Assembly: GCF_019297855.1 (NCBI RefSeq)
Contig: NZ_CP079194.1
Span: 1,971,501 to 2,035,500, forward strand
Length of the DNA stretch: 64,000 nt
Reading direction: 5' to 3'
Origin: Gymnodinialimonas ceratoperidinii
Lineage (GTDB): Bacteria; Pseudomonadota; Alphaproteobacteria; Rhodobacterales; Rhodobacteraceae
Shown: positions 9,404-20,147 of the stretch, in pieces
How positions within the stretch are numbered: position 1 is the stretch's first letter
Layout: every line of letters starts with the position of its first letter
The notes under the pieces: generated by a model
Told to the model about the DNA's origin: nothing
The model's input: only the letters and a program-made list of their open reading frames with translations
Databases searched by the model: none
Position numbers and translations under genes: made by a program

Positions 9404-10221
9404 GCGCGGCTTGGGTTCCGAACGGGCAGTTGCTGGCCGGCGGCAAGGCGTTGGAATACGCCTGTTGGGGGCCTGCGCCCGCTGACGCGCCGACGCTGGT
9501 GCTGCTTCACGAAGGGCTCGGCTGCACGGCGCTTTGGCGGGACTTCCCGGCGCGGCTGGCCGAGGCCACCGGCTTCGGCGTCGTGGCCTATTCGCGCGCC
9601 GGGTACGGGCAATCGGACCCGGCCGACTTGCCGCGCCCGCTCGACTACATGACCCGCGAGGCAGTTGATGTCTTGCCCGAGGTGCTCGACGCGCTCGGCG
9701 TGGTGCGCGCGGTCCTTCTGGGGCACAGCGACGGCGCCACGATCGCGGCGATCTATGCCGGGAGCGTGCAGGATCACCGGGTGCGCGGCGTCATCACCAT
9801 GGCGCCGCATTTCTTCACCGAGGACATGGGCCTGACCGAGATTGCGGCCGCGAAGACAGCCTTCGAGACGACCGATCTGCGGGCGAAGATGGCGAAATAC
9901 CACGCCGATCCCGACAACGCGTTTCGCGGCTGGAACGACGCCTGGCTGCATCCCGATTTCAAGAAGTGGAACGTCGAGGAAGTGCTGGATTACATCCGGG
10001 TGCCGGTGCTGGCGATCCAGGGGCGTGAGGACCAATACGGTACGCTGGCCCAGATCGAGGTGATGGAGCGCCGCAGCTACGCGCCGGTGGAGGTACTGGT
10101 GCTCGATGATTGCCGCCACGCGCCGTTTCTGGAACAGTCCGACGCCGTGCTCGGCGCCGTGGCCGACTATTGCCTGCGTCTGACCGAGATCGAAGCCGCG
10201 GGCGCAGCCCCCGTGCAATGA
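9400..10221 (+). CDS. Alpha/beta hydrolase of the benzoate operon
   Basis: Alpha/beta-hydrolase fold protein of 273 residues. The nucleophile elbow is GHSDG (Ser about residue 109), the oxyanion loop is LLHEGLGCT (not the usual HGxG), the acid lies after VLAIQGREDQYG, and the catalytic His is in DCRHAPF near the end. It starts inside the stop codon of bclA (ATGA) and its own stop overlaps the next gene, so it is translated with the ligase. Similar hydrolases accompany box clusters, where hydrolysis of a CoA ester or a side product is suspected. Its substrate is unknown. Confidence 0.8.
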
Positions 10222-10658
10222 CGCGCGCGGTGTTCACCCCCACGCACGCCTATGTGCCGGGCAAGACGCCGCGCCATCCCGAGGGCTGTTTCGACGCGAT
10301 CCGCGACACTGCGCAACCGGGAATGGATGCGCGGGCGCTGGCTGAAACGGACGCCTTCCAGACCGGGCTCGCTTACCTCGAGCAGGGGTATTTCTGGGAG
10401 GCGCACGAGGTTCTGGAACCGGTCTGGATGATCCTTCCGGAAGAATGCGACGCGCGATTGTTCGTGCAGGCGCTGATCCAGTTGGCGAATGCCCGGCTCA
10501 AACATCGCATGGAAAGACCGAAGGCCGCGCTGCGGCTTTGTGCTATCGTGCGCGGGCTGCTGGAGGAGACGTCCGGCGGCGTGATCATGGGTATCGAGAC
10601 GGCTGACATCGTGGCGCAGATCGATTCCCTTGAGGGCGAATTGAGTGATGATCTATAG
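10218..10658 (+). CDS. DUF309 domain protein
   Basis: Small helical protein of 146 residues. The DUF309 signature is clear: a YLEQGYFWEAHEVLEPVW helix pair, then LFVQALIQLANARLKHRM. The family has no established biochemical activity. It is translationally coupled to the hydrolase through an ATGA overlap and is the last gene before the boxC promoter region. Being fixed in a benzoate operon suggests an accessory role there, for example as a stabilising or regulatory protein; this is inference. Confidence 0.8.
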   Translation: MTRAVFTPTHAYVPGKTPRHPEGCFDAIRDTAQPGMDARALAETDAFQTGLAYLEQGYFWEAHEVLEPVWMILPEECDARLFVQALIQLANARLKHRMERPKAALRLCAIVRGLLEETSGGVIMGIETADIVAQIDSLEGELSDDL

Positions 10659-10805
10659 TGCATAAAGTGACCTGATCCTACCGGGTCAAATGCTAATGAG
10701 CTGAAAAACATCACATTTAACTCTGCTCTATCGTGCCATAATGAGTTTACTTACCAATCCGCCCACCCTAAGATGTGGGCAACAGTTTCCAGGGAGGACA
10801 CCCAC
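10656..10805 (+). promoter_or_regulatory. boxC upstream region with candidate operators
   Basis: The 147 bases between DUF309 and boxC hold one TGCA (10659-10662), an inverted repeat TGACC-N11-GGTCA (10668-10688), and a stretch at 10741-10758 whose reverse complement reads TTGGTAAG, a near match to the TTTAGTAAG element seen at 7331 and 20259. A strong GGGAGGA site precedes the boxC ATG. The length and symmetry suggest boxC-boxB-boxA has its own promoter besides read-through. Which regulator binds is not known. Confidence 0.4.
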
Positions 10806-12461
10806 ATGGGCAAGGTGATCGATTTTCAAACAAATCCATCCAGCTACCGTCATTGGCGCGTGGAATACGAGGGGCCGGTGGCGAACCTCTACATGGATGT
10901 CGATGAGGATGGCGGCCTGTTCGATGGGTACCAGCTGAAACTGAACTCCTACGACCTGGGCGTCGATATCGAGCTTAACGACATCGTCCAGCGGATGCGG
11001 TTCGAGCATCCGGAAGTGAAGGTCGTGGTGATGCAGTCGGGCAAGGACAAGGTCTTCTGCGCCGGCGCCAACATCCGCATGTTGGGCGGCGCCGCGCACA
11101 GCCACAAGGTCAACTTCTGCAAGTTCACCAACGAGACCCGCAACGCTTTCGAGGCGGCGGAAGAAGAGAGCGGCCAGAAATACGTCGCGGCCGTGAAGGG
11201 CGCCTGCGCGGGCGGCGGCTATGAGCTGGCGCTGGCCTGCAACCACATCATGCTGACCGACGACAGCACCTCTTCCGTGGGTCTGCCCGAGGTGCCGCTG
11301 CTGGCGGTTCTGCCCGGCACCGGCGGCCTGACGCGCGTGACCGACAAGCGCAAGGTGCGCCGTGACCTCGCCGACATCTTCTGTTCGATCGAAGAGGGCG
11401 TGAAGGGCAAGCGCGCGAAGGACTGGCGGCTGGTCGACGAGGTCATCGCCAACTCCAAGTTCGACGAGACGGTGCAGGAGCGCGCCCGCGAATTCGCCAC
11501 CGCTTCCGATAAGCCGGAAGCCTCCGAGGGTGTCACTTTCGGTCCGCTCAACCGCACCATTGGCGAGAACTCGGTGACGTACGATCTGGTCGAAGTCGAG
11601 CTGGACCGTGACGCGCGCCGCGCCACGATCACCCTCAAGGGCCCCGAGGAAGACGCCCCCGCCGACATGGAGGCCTTCCACGCCCAGGGCGATCAGGCCT
11701 ACCTGCTGAAGCTCTGCCGCGAGCTGGAGGACGCGATCCTGCACCTGCGGTTGAACGAGATGGAAACCGGCCTCTGGATCTTCAAGACGGTGGGTGATGC
11801 CGATGCCTTCCTCGCCCACGAGGCGGTGATCGCCGACAGCGACCACTGGCTCGCCAACGAGGTGCGCCAGTACTGGAAGCGCACGCTCAAGCGCGTCGAC
11901 GTGACCTCGCGCTCGCTGGCGGCGTTTGTCGAGAACGGCTCCTGCTTCGCGGGCCTGCTGGCCGAGCTGCTCTTCGCCGTCGACCGGAGCTACATGATGG
12001 AAGGCGAATTCGAGGGCGACAACCGCCCCGAGGCGGCGATCAAGCTGTCGTCCTCCAACTTCGGCCCCTATCCGATGGGCAACGACCTGACCCGCCTGCA
12101 GACCCGTTTCCTCGGCACCCCCGAGATGGTCGAAAAGGCGCAGGAAAACATCGGTGAAAGCCTCGACGCCGAAGCGGCGGACGCGCTTGGCCTCGTGACG
12201 ATGATCCTCGACGACATCGACTGGGAAGACGAAGTTCGCATCTTCATGGAAGAGCGCGCCAGCTTCTCGCCCGACGCGATGACCGGCATGGAAGCCAACC
12301 TGCGCTTCGCGGGCCCCGAGACGATGGAGACGCGGATCTTCGGGCGACTCACCGCCTGGCAGAACTGGATCTTCAACCGCCCCAACGCGGTCGGCGAGGA
12401 CGGCGCGTTGCAGCGCTACGGCACCGGTGTGCGCGGCGATTACAACATGGAGCGGGTGTAA
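10806..12461 (+). CDS. boxC: 2,3-Epoxybenzoyl-CoA dihydrolase (benzoyl-CoA-dihydrodiol lyase)
   Basis: Ring-opening enzyme of the aerobic benzoyl-CoA pathway: converts 2,3-epoxybenzoyl-CoA and water to 3,4-dehydroadipyl-CoA semialdehyde and formate. The 551-residue length matches BoxC, a double-crotonase protein. The N-terminal crotonase half shows VFCAGANIRMLG and GACAGGGYELALAC, then SVGLPEVPLLAVLPGTGG; the C-terminal half carries NGSCFAGLLAELLFA. ATG 10806 follows a GGGAGGACA site; an in-frame upstream start at 10773 lacks one. It is followed 118 bases later by boxB. Identification is firm from the length and double-crotonase layout and from the neighbours. Confidence 0.95.
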   Translation: MGKVIDFQTNPSSYRHWRVEYEGPVANLYMDVDEDGGLFDGYQLKLNSYDLGVDIELNDIVQRMRFEHPEVKVVVMQSGKDKVFCAGANIRMLGGAAHSHKVNFCKFTNETRNAFEAAEEESGQKYVAAVKGACAGGGYELALACNHIMLTDDSTSSVGLPEVPLLAVLPGTGGLTRVTDKRKVRRDLADIFCSIEEGVKGKRAKDWRLVDEVIANSKFDETVQERAREFATASDKPEASEGVTFGPLNRTIGENSVTYDLVEVELDRDARRATITLKGPEEDAPADMEAFHAQGDQAYLLKLCRELEDAILHLRLNEMETGLWIFKTVGDADAFLAHEAVIADSDHWLANEVRQYWKRTLKRVDVTSRSLAAFVENGSCFAGLLAELLFAVDRSYMMEGEFEGDNRPEAAIKLSSSNFGPYPMGNDLTRLQTRFLGTPEMVEKAQENIGESLDAEAADALGLVTMILDDIDWEDEVRIFMEERASFSPDAMTGMEANLRFAGPETMETRIFGRLTAWQNWIFNRPNAVGEDGALQRYGTGVRGDYNMERV

Positions 12462-12579
12462 CCCGCCGGGACAGGACGGCGGGAACTGACCCGCAGCGCG
12501 TCCGGGCTTTCGGCCCGGGCCGCGACCAGACCGACAGACATTGGCCGGGCCGAGGCTCGCGCTCAGGAGGAGAAGCAAG

Positions 12580-14028
12580 ATGACTGCAATCGACGTATCC
12601 TACGACACGATGATCCCCAACAACGTGGGCCTCAGCGAAGACCGCAAGGTTCTGAAGGCGTTGGAGAAATGGCACCCCGGTTACATCAACTGGTGGAATG
12701 ACCTGATCCCGCAGAACTTTCAGGAAAGCATGGTCTACCTGCGCACCGCCGTCAGCGTGGACCCCAAGGGTTGGGCCAAGTTCGACTACGTGAAGATGCC
12801 GGAATACCGGTGGGGCGTTCTGTTGGCGCCGCAGGTCGAGGGCCGCACCATTCCCATGGGTGAGCACGCCGGCAAGCCCGCGTGGCAGGAAGTGCCCGGT
12901 GAATACCGCAACATGCTCAAGCGCCTGATCGTGATCCAGGGCGACACCGAGCCGGGCTCGGTCGAGCAGCAGAAGTTCCTCGGCCTCACGGCGCCCTCGC
13001 TCTACGACATGCGCAACCTGTTTCAGGTCAACGTGGAGGAGGGCCGTCACCTCTGGGCGATGGTCTACCTGCTGCAGAAATACTTCGGCAAGGATGGCCG
13101 CGAAGAGGCAGATGACCTGCTGCGCCGCTCCTCCGGTTCCGACGAGGCGCCCCGCATGCTCGGCGCCTTCAACGAGGAAACGCCGGATTGGCTGTCGTTC
13201 TTCATGTTCACCTATTTCACCGACCGTGACGGCAAGATGCAGCTGGAAAGCCTCGCGCAATCGGGCTTCGACCCGCTCTCGCGCACCTGCCGCTTCATGC
13301 TGACCGAGGAAGCGCACCACATGTTCGTGGGTGAAACCGGCGTGGGCCGCGTTTTGCAGGCGACCTGCGATGCGATGAACAAGGCCGGCATCACCGATCC
13401 CTACGACATCGGCCGGGTCCGCGACCTCGGCGTGATCGACCTGCCGACGATCCAGAAGAAGCTGAACCTGCACTACTCGCTGTCTCTCGACCTCTTCGGT
13501 CAGGAGGTCTCCACCAACGCGGCCAACGCCTTCAACTCGGGCATCAAGGGCCGCTACATGGAGCAGCGCATCGACGACGACCACAAGTTGCAGAACGACA
13601 CCTACATCGTGCGCAACGTCGTCGACGGCAAGATCGTGGCCGAGGAGGTCCCGGCACTGACGGCGATCAACATGCGCCTGCGCGACGACTACATTCGCGA
13701 CGCCTCGGGCGGCGTGGGGCGCTGGAACAAGCTGCTGCAGAAAGCCGGGATCGATTTCCAGCTGGAGATGCCGCACGAGGCCTTCCACCGTCAGATCGGC
13801 GTGTTCGCCGCGATCAAGGCAAACCCGCAGGGCGACATCATCTCGGAAGAGGAATGGGCCGCGAACGAGCACAAGTGGATCCCCACCAAGGAAGACGGGG
13901 CCTTCATCCAGTCGCTCATGGTGCCCTGCTACGAGCCCGGCAAATACGCCAGCTGGATCTCGGCGCCGAAGATCGGCATCGACAACAAGCCGGGCGACTT
14001 CGAATACGTCAAACTGCACATGGCGTGA
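12580..14028 (+). CDS. boxB: Benzoyl-CoA 2,3-epoxidase subunit B
   Basis: Class I diiron oxygenase that epoxidises benzoyl-CoA with O2, using electrons from BoxA; 482 residues. Iron-ligand motifs are visible: VEEGRHLWAM (Glu153/154 and His157) and LTEEAHHMF (Glu243/244 and His246/247), both ExxH pairs in helices. An AGGAGGAGAAG site lies just before ATG 12580. The 118-base gap after boxC shows no terminator. The next gene, a 55-residue Cys-rich protein, starts 57 bases downstream, which is unlike the usual direct boxB-boxA arrangement. Confidence 0.95.
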   Translation: MTAIDVSYDTMIPNNVGLSEDRKVLKALEKWHPGYINWWNDLIPQNFQESMVYLRTAVSVDPKGWAKFDYVKMPEYRWGVLLAPQVEGRTIPMGEHAGKPAWQEVPGEYRNMLKRLIVIQGDTEPGSVEQQKFLGLTAPSLYDMRNLFQVNVEEGRHLWAMVYLLQKYFGKDGREEADDLLRRSSGSDEAPRMLGAFNEETPDWLSFFMFTYFTDRDGKMQLESLAQSGFDPLSRTCRFMLTEEAHHMFVGETGVGRVLQATCDAMNKAGITDPYDIGRVRDLGVIDLPTIQKKLNLHYSLSLDLFGQEVSTNAANAFNSGIKGRYMEQRIDDDHKLQNDTYIVRNVVDGKIVAEEVPALTAINMRLRDDYIRDASGGVGRWNKLLQKAGIDFQLEMPHEAFHRQIGVFAAIKANPQGDIISEEEWAANEHKWIPTKEDGAFIQSLMVPCYEPGKYASWISAPKIGIDNKPGDFEYVKLHMA

Positions 14029-14085
14029 TGCCATTGCGGGAGGGCCGGTCCACCGGCCTTCCCATCTGCGTCAGGGAGGACAGAC

Positions 14086-14253
14086 ATGGTTATCAGCCGC
14101 CAAGCGACCGCACCCATCTCCGCGCCGGCCATTGCCCGGCTCCGCGAAAGCTGCATGGGTTGCACCGATTGCAAGGGAACCTGTACCGAGCTGATGCAGA
14201 TGTTCCTGCTACCTGAAATTCTGCTCCGTCGCCGCCGGGAGGGCCAGTCGTGA
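14086..14253 (+). CDS. 55-residue CxxCxxCxxxC mini-protein between boxB and boxA
   Basis: A short gene starting ATG 14086, 6 bases after an AGGGAGGA ribosome-binding site, and ending TGA 14251-14253 inside the boxA start (GTGA overlap). The product has four cysteines at 23, 26, 29 and 33 (CMGCTDCKGTC), exactly the spacing of a bacterial ferredoxin [4Fe-4S] motif, but the last Cys is followed by Thr instead of Pro and there is no second set. After the cysteines comes a hydrophobic helix (ELMQMFLLPEILL) and a basic tail RRRREG. It could be a small Fe-S or zinc protein that docks on BoxA/BoxB, or an assembly factor. I do not recognise a named family. Confidence 0.75.
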   Translation: MVISRQATAPISAPAIARLRESCMGCTDCKGTCTELMQMFLLPEILLRRRREGQS

Positions 14254-15452
14254 ACAAACCCCTGAAACAGCACCTGATCGACCCGGAAATCTGCATCCGC
14301 TGCTACACTTGCGAGATGACATGCCCGGTGGGCGCGATCGAGCATGACGACAACAACGTCGTCGTGAACCCCGACACCTGCAACTTCTGCATGGATTGCA
14401 TCCCGGTCTGCCCGACCGGCTCCATCGACGAATGGCGCGTGGTCAACGAGCCCTATTCGCTGGAAGAACAATACGAATTCGACGAACTCCCCGAGCAGGG
14501 CGAGATCGCTCAGGCCGCGGCGGCGCCGGAAGGCACCGAAGATGGCGATGCCGAGGTCGATCCCGTCGCCGCCCTGCTGGCCGAGGCCCATGCGGGCGCG
14601 GGCGGCAAGGCCAAGGCGCCCGCCAGCGCCGCGAAGCCCTCGGTCAACCTCTACAACCTCGGCCATCCGGTCGAGGCCGTGGTGCAGGGCAACTACCGCC
14701 TCACTGCCGAGAGCTCCGACGCCGACGTGCGCCACATCATCCTCGATTTCCAAGGCAAGCCGTTCCCCGTGCTCGAGGGCCAGTCCCTCGGCATCATCGC
14801 GCCGGGTGCTGACGCCGAGGGCAAGGCCCATCTGCCGCGGCTCTACTCCGTTTCCAGCCCCCGTGATGGCGAGCGGGCGGGCTATCACAACGTCTCGCTC
14901 ACCGTGAAGCGCGAGGAGGGGGGGCTCTGCTCCAACTATGTCTGCGACCTGAAGAAGGGCGACAAGGTGCGCGTCACCGGGCCGTTCGGCGCGACCTTCC
15001 TGATGCCCTCGGACCCCGACGCGCGGCTGCTGATGATCTGCACCGGCACCGGCTCCGCGCCGATGCGCGCGTTTACCATGGCGCGCCAGCGCAGCGTCGG
15101 CGTGAAGCCGGGCGGCATGATGATGTTCTTCGGCGCCCGCACCCCCGACAGCCTGCCGTACTTCGGGCCGCTGAAGAAAATCCCCTCGGACCTGCTGGAG
15201 CAGCACCTCGTTTTCAGCCGGATGCCCGAGCAGCAGAAGGAATATGTGCAGGACCGGATGCTGGCGGAAGAAGACCGTGTGGCCGAGTATCTCAACGATC
15301 CCAAGACCCACATCTACATCTGCGGCCTGAAGGGCATGGAGGAGGGCGTGGAGCGCGCCTTCACCACCATCGCCGAGTCGATCGGCGAGCAGTGGATCAA
15401 CCTGCGCGACGGCATGCGCGAGGATGGCCGCTATCACGTGGAGACCTACTGA
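14250..15452 (+). CDS. boxA: Benzoyl-CoA 2,3-epoxidase reductase subunit A
   Basis: Reductase that passes electrons from NADPH through FAD and two [4Fe-4S] clusters to BoxB; 400 residues. The ferredoxin domain is at residues 10-60 with two CxxCxxCxxxCP motifs (Cys15/18/21/25 and Cys44/47/50/54). An acidic and Ala-rich linker (about 75-130) leads to an FNR-like FAD/NADP domain: RLYSVSS for flavin, CSNYVCDL, then ICTGTGSAPMRAF for the nicotinamide nucleotide. The start is GTG 14250, overlapping the stop of the Cys-rich mini-protein, so its translation is probably coupled to that gene. Confidence 0.95.
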   Translation: MNKPLKQHLIDPEICIRCYTCEMTCPVGAIEHDDNNVVVNPDTCNFCMDCIPVCPTGSIDEWRVVNEPYSLEEQYEFDELPEQGEIAQAAAAPEGTEDGDAEVDPVAALLAEAHAGAGGKAKAPASAAKPSVNLYNLGHPVEAVVQGNYRLTAESSDADVRHIILDFQGKPFPVLEGQSLGIIAPGADAEGKAHLPRLYSVSSPRDGERAGYHNVSLTVKREEGGLCSNYVCDLKKGDKVRVTGPFGATFLMPSDPDARLLMICTGTGSAPMRAFTMARQRSVGVKPGGMMMFFGARTPDSLPYFGPLKKIPSDLLEQHLVFSRMPEQQKEYVQDRMLAEEDRVAEYLNDPKTHIYICGLKGMEEGVERAFTTIAESIGEQWINLRDGMREDGRYHVETY

Positions 15453-15453
15453 C

Positions 15454-15906
15454 ATGACGCCAAAGCCCGACAGCGCCCATTGCCACGAGATCAACGTGAC
15501 GTGGGGCGATTGCGACCCCGCCATGATCGCCTATACCGCGCGGCTGCCGTGGTTTGCGCTCGATGCGATCAACGGCTGGTGGGAGGCGCATCTGGACGGT
15601 GATGGCTGGTTCCAGATGGAGCTCGACCGCAATGTCGGTACGCCCTTCGTGCGGCTGGAGATGGATTTCACCTCTCCGGTGACCCCGCGCCACAAGCTGC
15701 TGTGCTACGTCTGGCCCGAGAAGCTCGGCACCTCGTCGATCACCTTCCGCGTCGACGCGGAGCAGGACGGCAAGTTGTGCTTCTCCAGCCGGTCGGTCAG
15801 CGTCTTCACCGTGGCTGACAAGTTCCAGAAACAACCGGCACCCGCCGAGATCCGCGCCATTGTTGAGCCGTTGATCCCGCCGCAGCCCGTAACCGCCGAT
15901 GCCTGA
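15454..15906 (+). CDS. 4-Hydroxybenzoyl-CoA-type thioesterase (hotdog fold)
   Basis: Acyl-CoA thioesterase of 150 residues. The hotdog signature TWGDCDPAMIAYTARLPWF contains the conserved Asp and the YxxR-like helix of the 4HBT family. It starts one base after the boxA stop and overlaps boxR by 8 bases. In box clusters such thioesterases are thought to release CoA from dead-end benzoyl-CoA analogues that would otherwise trap the CoA pool. The exact substrate is inferred. Confidence 0.85.
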   Translation: MTPKPDSAHCHEINVTWGDCDPAMIAYTARLPWFALDAINGWWEAHLDGDGWFQMELDRNVGTPFVRLEMDFTSPVTPRHKLLCYVWPEKLGTSSITFRVDAEQDGKLCFSSRSVSVFTVADKFQKQPAPAEIRAIVEPLIPPQPVTADA

Positions 15907-19919: not shown

Positions 19920-20147
19920 TTACCAGTTGCGACAATAGGAGGGCGCGGCGTCGAGCGTCGGGTTCTCCGCCTGCAGACGCGCGCAAGCCGCGTGCTCCTT
20001 GCAAGCCGCACAGCGCAGGATCGCGGACCGGTAGGCGGCCGCATCGGCCTCCGTTGGCGATGTGGTTGTGCCGGGGACGCGCGTGCCAAGGCGGTCGGCC
20101 ATCCCCGCGGTGAGGCTGCAACTCTCGTCAATTTTCCTGTAGAACAT
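19920..20147 (-). CDS. DUF6455 family small protein
   Basis: A 75-residue protein typical of Rhodobacterales. The DUF6455 pattern is visible: ILRCAACKEHAACARLQ followed by an APSYCRN end, giving conserved cysteines in a C-x2-C-x4-C spacing plus one near the terminus. A helical N-terminal half carries little conservation. The ATG at 20147 has a good AGAGGTGA site. It faces the aldo/keto reductase tail to tail (7-base gap). Function is unknown; the cysteines suggest metal or redox chemistry. Confidence 0.7.
   Translation of the reverse strand: MFYRKIDESCSLTAGMADRLGTRVPGTTTSPTEADAAAYRSAILRCAACKEHAACARLQAENPTLDAAPSYCRNW

Follow-up and report, generated by a model that had tools for sequence, protein, structure and literature searches.

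The BoxA/BoxB benzoyl-CoA epoxidase as described consists of two proteins. What, then, is the role of the 55-codon open reading frame (ORF) with four cysteines that lies between boxB and boxA in Gymnodinialimonas ceratoperidinii? An earlier note on this DNA had proposed it as a third component of the BoxAB system. We asked how far the ORF, its relatives and their genomic surroundings bear this out, starting from the window, by which we mean the whole stretch of 64,000 nucleotides that was analysed.

The microprotein gene and its operon

The microprotein ORF, as read in the window, opens with ATG at 14086, runs for 55 codons and closes with TGA at 14251-14253; its translation is MVISRQATAPISAPAIARLRESCMGCTDCKGTCTELMQMFLLPEILLRRRREGQS, in which cysteines 23, 26, 29 and 33 are followed by the segment LLPEILLRRRR. 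These features, together with the ribosome site and the stop codon overlapping the GTG of boxA (Table 1), had been described in the earlier note and are borne out by the sequence. A purine-rich site is found 5' of the ATG in 65 of 67 homologues, judged by a loose pattern, and the 4-nt overlap with boxA recurs in 43 of the 55 loci of the A2 alignment where boxA was found. The case for a hydrophobic helix after the motif is weaker than had been stated, since the invariant Pro43 falls inside the segment and the AlphaFold predictions have low confidence.

Table 1. Coordinates in the window of the microprotein gene, its sequence elements and its neighbours
Feature	Position	Strand	Basis or remark
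boxC, 2,3-epoxybenzoyl-CoA dihydrolase	10773..12461	+	TIGR03222, 980 bits
boxB, benzoyl-CoA 2,3-epoxidase diiron subunit	12580..14028	+	TIGR03225, 902 bits
Shine-Dalgarno-like AGGGAGGA	14073..14080	+	5 nt 5' of the microprotein ATG
Cys4 microprotein gene	14086..14253, stop included	+	ORF reading, homologues, A2 alignment
CxxCxxCxxxC codons, Cys23-Cys33	14152..14184	+	Cys kept in 67/67 aligned
GTGA overlap, microprotein stop/boxA start	14250..14253	+	boxA GTG at 14250
boxA, ferredoxin + FNR-type reductase	14250..15452	+	TIGR03224, 536 bits; two Fer4 stretches
4HBT-type thioesterase	15424..15906	+	family match

Upstream of the microprotein lie a benzoate-CoA ligase gene, boxC and boxB, the last of which was used in queries that started at 12574, two codons 5' of its ATG; downstream are boxA, a FadJ-like gene, the thioesterase gene and boxR. 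Here and below, the labels boxR, LacI-like, DctQ and DctM were assigned from sequence, without a family search, and for the labels DctP, AlkZ-like and flavodoxin a family match was checked on one copy each. The box cluster also contains a DUF309 gene (window positions 10212-10658), and another small cysteine-containing protein, of 75 residues and the DUF6455 type, is encoded near the operon on the minus strand (19920-20147).

A lineage-specific family under selection

A protein search of 147 relatives gave 14 matches, the source genome included. In 12 of the 13 other matching relatives the microprotein lies between boxB and boxA, in the same orientation; the match at locus L014, which has neither boxB nor boxA, is taken to be spurious. 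With a 13-row profile, 83 of 394 family genomes match at E <= 0.01 and 66 at E < 1e-8, the family being Rhodobacteraceae in the wide sense (the NCBI ranks read Roseobacteraceae or Paracoccaceae). The A2 alignment holds 67 of the 75 distinct translations, the eight rows left out being four pieces of two frameshifted copies (genomes G021 and G212), the G371 variant and three noise hits. In G021, boxC and the ligase gene also match in two pieces each, which suggests a noisy assembly.

Throughout the 67 aligned homologues C23, C26, C29, G31, C33 and P43 are invariant, and this conservation of cysteines and frame among related box clusters upholds the earlier view that the gene is real. So does the pattern of substitution, which stays clear of a ratio of 1: dN/dS is 0.33-0.34 in three pairs within the genus (0.33 for the window member against G002 and G006; Fisher p 0.0017, from rounded counts, against G002), and pN/pS is 0.18 in the Leisingera-type copies described below. 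Judging from these comparisons, the ORF is a genuine gene under purifying selection. The constraint is far weaker than that on boxA and boxB, for which dN/dS within the genus is 0.03-0.10 and 0.003-0.014, respectively.

The family of 47-70 residues, with the core C-x2-C-x2-C-x-G-x-C...P, is undescribed and lineage-specific. None of the scores listed from Pfam and NCBIfam searches attains a family cut-off, and the ORF is unreported in the literature searched, from which subscription papers mostly fell outside coverage, as it is in the part of PMC9873259 (on benzoate genes in general) that was covered. Among 385 genomes of the class there is no convincing match outside the family, the source genome scoring 64 bits and the others about 22 bits or less. 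The same holds for a sample of 398 genomes of the phylum: of the 10 matches listed, six are in the family and the other four score 20-25 bits, three of these as parts of open frames some 950-1020 residues long. The homologues envisaged in Burkholderiales were thus not found in the phylum sample, nor in one annotated Burkholderiales record, where the boxB-boxA gap is 22 nt, and plasmid records gave zero matches for two query members. All names attached to 40 named loci come from the Rhodobacteraceae group, for example Ruegeria pomeroyi, Leisingera, Sulfitobacter and Antarcticimicrobium, in a scan that used one peptide pattern and so sees only members with that stretch. One genome (G451) has a second copy of the microprotein (L145), next to boxR-like and partial fadJ-like matches and away from its box cluster (L121).

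Iron-sulphur cluster or zinc

The motif CxxCxxCxxxC is present in all 67 aligned members, and CxxCxxC is a classical Fe-S cluster motif. The window member scores 15.4 bits against Fer4_18 (cut-off 27; E 0.022) and 13.7 bits against Fer4_2 (cut-off 24.5), and the best E-value listed for the other 66 members against Fer4 models is 0.00054. The recurrent weak Pfam matches fall mostly on Fer4_2 (17/67 members), Fer4_18 (13/67) and other Fer4 models, with DUF2112 (2/67) as an exception to the 4Fe-4S pattern. Weak NCBIfam matches are to ferredoxin-type and other Fe-S models (25 of 38 families listed), including TIGR02745 in 8 of 67 members, and a PDB match to PsaC has an E-value of 1.3e-4 within the motif. 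An Fe-S cluster is favoured over zinc as the probable ligand, by motif matches only.

The nearest known systems differ from the microprotein in several respects. Bacterial 2[4Fe-4S] ferredoxins (Fer4, PsaC, the BoxA N terminus) have one copy of CxxCxxCxxxC in common with it and give the best profile matches of this kind, and they usually carry a Pro after the fourth Cys. The microprotein, in contrast, has four Cys only and one motif, usually without that Pro, and it has an invariant Gly within the motif; homology beyond the motif is undetected, and the scores stay below every cut-off listed. In the A1 alignment a second cluster motif is absent from all 13 rows; L010 has Cys-Pro, but in the other 12 rows, among them the window member, Cys33 is not followed by Pro. 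CcoG, a membrane protein, carries two cluster motifs, and after its CxGCxxCxxxC come a helix and, about ten residues further, a Pro. Its cluster region (CcoG/RdxA-FixG; Fer4_18, TIGR02745) has all three of these in common with the microprotein, which nevertheless has one motif and falls about 12 bits below the Pfam cut-off. Origin by duplication from the BoxA ferredoxin domain was considered and is unsupported, as hhalign gave a probability of 3.1% (E 0.014) with similarity confined to 16 motif columns. Two AlphaFold predictions gave a low-confidence helical peptide (mean pLDDT 62 and 67, pTM 0.32 and 0.29).

Several observations count against our best reading, an Fe-S protein: the scores stay short of every family cut-off and the likeness ends at the motif; the Pro customary after the fourth Cys is usually missing, and an invariant Gly stands two residues ahead of that Cys; the hhalign match to the BoxA domain and the structure predictions are poor; and the related ORFs of three flavodoxin-type clusters have C-x3-C-x2-C-x3-C, a looser spacing than ferredoxins usually permit. 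A zinc-binding small adaptor or regulator, non-redox and acting through protein-protein or nucleic-acid contact, would suit this varying C-x2/3-C spacing in the flavodoxin-linked forms, the small size and basic C terminus of the protein, the resemblance of CxxCxGxC to DnaJ-like zinc modules and the weak Anti-TRAP match of one of the 67 members (E 0.04). We consider it unlikely, as the recurrent weak matches are mostly to 4Fe-4S models and not to zinc modules, and the classical CxxCxxC motif speaks against it as well.

The tie to boxB and boxA

The microprotein shares operon and strand with the epoxidase genes. Among the 394 family genomes, 58 have the microprotein and boxB, 8 the microprotein only, 24 boxB only and 304 neither; boxB is thus present in 58 of the 66 strong carriers, with an odds ratio of 92. 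This linkage, the place between boxB and boxA and the 4-nt overlap are what one would expect if the microprotein were dedicated to BoxAB alone, as a third subunit or a maturation factor supplying the diiron site of BoxB with iron or electrons. The microprotein also stays by boxB where boxA is on another contig (G149, G282) or was not found (G289, only 75% complete; G458), and a related ORF lies between boxB and flavodoxin in three clusters.

An obligate component of BoxAB would accompany boxB everywhere and be missing where boxB and boxA are; instead, 24 of 82 boxB genomes have no strong match, and 18 distinct genomes without box genes have an intact copy. In 16 of the 24, boxA adjoins boxB and the ORF is absent. 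Three (G208, G309, G371) have a variant ORF, MxIxR...C-x3-C-x2-C-x3-C, between boxB and the flavodoxin gene, one (G029) carries a CxxCxxCxxxC ORF that has diverged widely, and two (G007, G068) have flavodoxin and lack the ORF; in the last two (G171, G413) the locus stops at a contig end, so that their microprotein state lies beyond the sequence. Mapped on a BoxB tree, presence and absence need at least 17 changes (the parsimony minimum), four of them forced by strong branches. This is a quick tree of 140 rows, with some genomes repeated as truncated loci, G021 scored as a carrier, G029 as a non-carrier and weak support for 59 of the 134 inner branches. We read it as pointing to a microprotein that may have been ancestral to one large BoxB clade and repeatedly lost, many of the branches being weak.

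What stands of the proposed third component is thus a real, selected gene with strong linkage to boxB, but the dedicated role does not follow, as Box does without the microprotein and the microprotein does without Box. Besides the 16 boxB-boxA pairs without the ORF, a dedicated subunit is at odds with the purifying selection that keeps the microprotein in Leisingera-type genomes lacking boxB or boxA, and with its faster evolution than that of BoxB (dN/dS 0.33 vs 0.014). We therefore regard a role confined to BoxAB as quite improbable.

The box clusters themselves vary. A flavodoxin-like gene, assigned by a PF00258 match on the L054 copy, lies between boxB and the thioesterase gene, at the place of boxA, in 13 genomes: nine from the same genus as the window, together with G068, G208, G309 and G371 (L054-L062, L064, L152, L186, L191). 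There is no boxA match in the four flavodoxin genomes checked (G001, G003, G068, G371), and BoxB may run on flavodoxin in such clusters. In BoxA of G164 and G238 (L181, L188) one Cys is missing from the second ferredoxin motif, which reads CDHEGSC and CDHEMAC rather than CNFCMDC.

Copies without the benzoate enzyme

The family genomes without boxB and boxA hold seven intact copies of the microprotein and one frameshifted copy (G212). Of the 40 named loci, 13 are without boxB, and all 13 genomes lack boxB and boxA; R. pomeroyi, the fourteenth genome checked, has boxB as expected. When L218 and L220 are counted once with G262 and G457, 18 distinct box-less genomes have an intact copy, that is, 18 of 19 copies, and the frameshift in G212 counts against our best reading. 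Ten Leisingera-type copies, from eight Leisingera and two further records with near-identical copies, have a pN/pS of 0.18, uncorrected and summed over 45 pairs; of the 52 codons that vary, 31 do so only synonymously, the synonymous distance is at least 0.93 in 9 of the 16 pairs listed out of the 45, and selection between L204 and L208 is significant at p 1.3e-7. Since relatives without the benzoate enzyme still keep the microprotein, it seems to have its own job.

The surroundings of these copies are partly shared. In L204, L206, L208, L213, L222, G175 and G262 a TRAP transporter is followed by the microprotein and then by AlkZ-like and LacI-like genes, the first five being those of the ten Leisingera-type loci that were read gene by gene, and in G289 and G371 box genes occupy that same place. 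The simplest account would be that deletions removed the box genes on either side of the microprotein and left it in place, a direction of change that we infer. The order TRAP transporter, box genes, AlkZ-like glycosylase, LacI-like regulator forms a common locus (L149, L152, L142, L143, L208), in several lineages without the box genes. Of the 13 named loci that lack box genes, 7 have a 4HBT thioesterase homologue 3' of the microprotein. In G335 (L147), which is box-less, the microprotein and a DUF309-like gene stand side by side, adjoining a TRAP transporter. No neighbour is common to every box-less copy; G286 and G401 adjoin HpcH-aldolase and HTH/PBP genes. PaaA, a related diiron epoxidase subunit, occurs in 14 of 18 box-less carriers and in 14 of 26 box-less controls that lack the microprotein. 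Since 4 of the 18 carriers have no PaaA, and three of these are 99-100% complete, the microprotein does not require it as a partner. That no partner was found in the box-less genomes counts against our best reading.

These copies also bear on two simpler readings. A leader ORF with an inert product, translated only to link boxB with the expression of boxA, would explain the stop-start overlap in 43 of 55 loci, but selection at the amino-acid level and the invariant cysteines make it very improbable, and persistence in genomes without boxA contradicts it as the sole role. Still less credible is a passive relic of recent deletion, suggested by several box-less copies at the place of relatives' box clusters, between the TRAP transporter and the AlkZ-like/LacI-like pair, and by the frameshift in G212, yet largely contradicted by the constrained protein at such synonymous distances in the Leisingera-type pairs and by the 18 of 19 copies that are intact.

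A probable shared redox or accessory protein

The reading that we hold to be probable, with some reserve, is that the microprotein binds an Fe-S cluster and acts as a small redox or accessory protein common to Box and another process; we are less confident of any specific partner. Most likely, we infer from the sequence, its cysteines bind a [4Fe-4S] cluster, with three ligands from CxxCxxC and the fourth from Cys33, which would come from the same chain or be exchanged between the chains of a homodimer; a Cys33-swapped homodimer would rebuild a two-cluster ferredoxin. In most carriers the microprotein gene sits in the box operon, where it probably shares a transcript with boxB and boxA, and its product would help the oxygenase under some condition. 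It would also serve at least one other process, hence its retention where boxB and boxA are absent. We speculate further, and with considerable doubt, that these 55-residue, one-motif chains form a free-standing half-ferredoxin, dimerising so that each lends Cys33 to the cluster of the other, which was recruited by the diiron epoxidase operon in Rhodobacteraceae and later kept as a general redox partner.

If a cluster is bound, the microprotein would be a minimal natural half-ferredoxin. A conserved unnamed gene, carried by a group of mostly marine bacteria, joins the known genes of the box operon in many Rhodobacteraceae, Ruegeria pomeroyi (L205) among them. With it comes a testable question: what job a Cys4 microprotein does beside a diiron epoxidase, and why it is retained without that enzyme.
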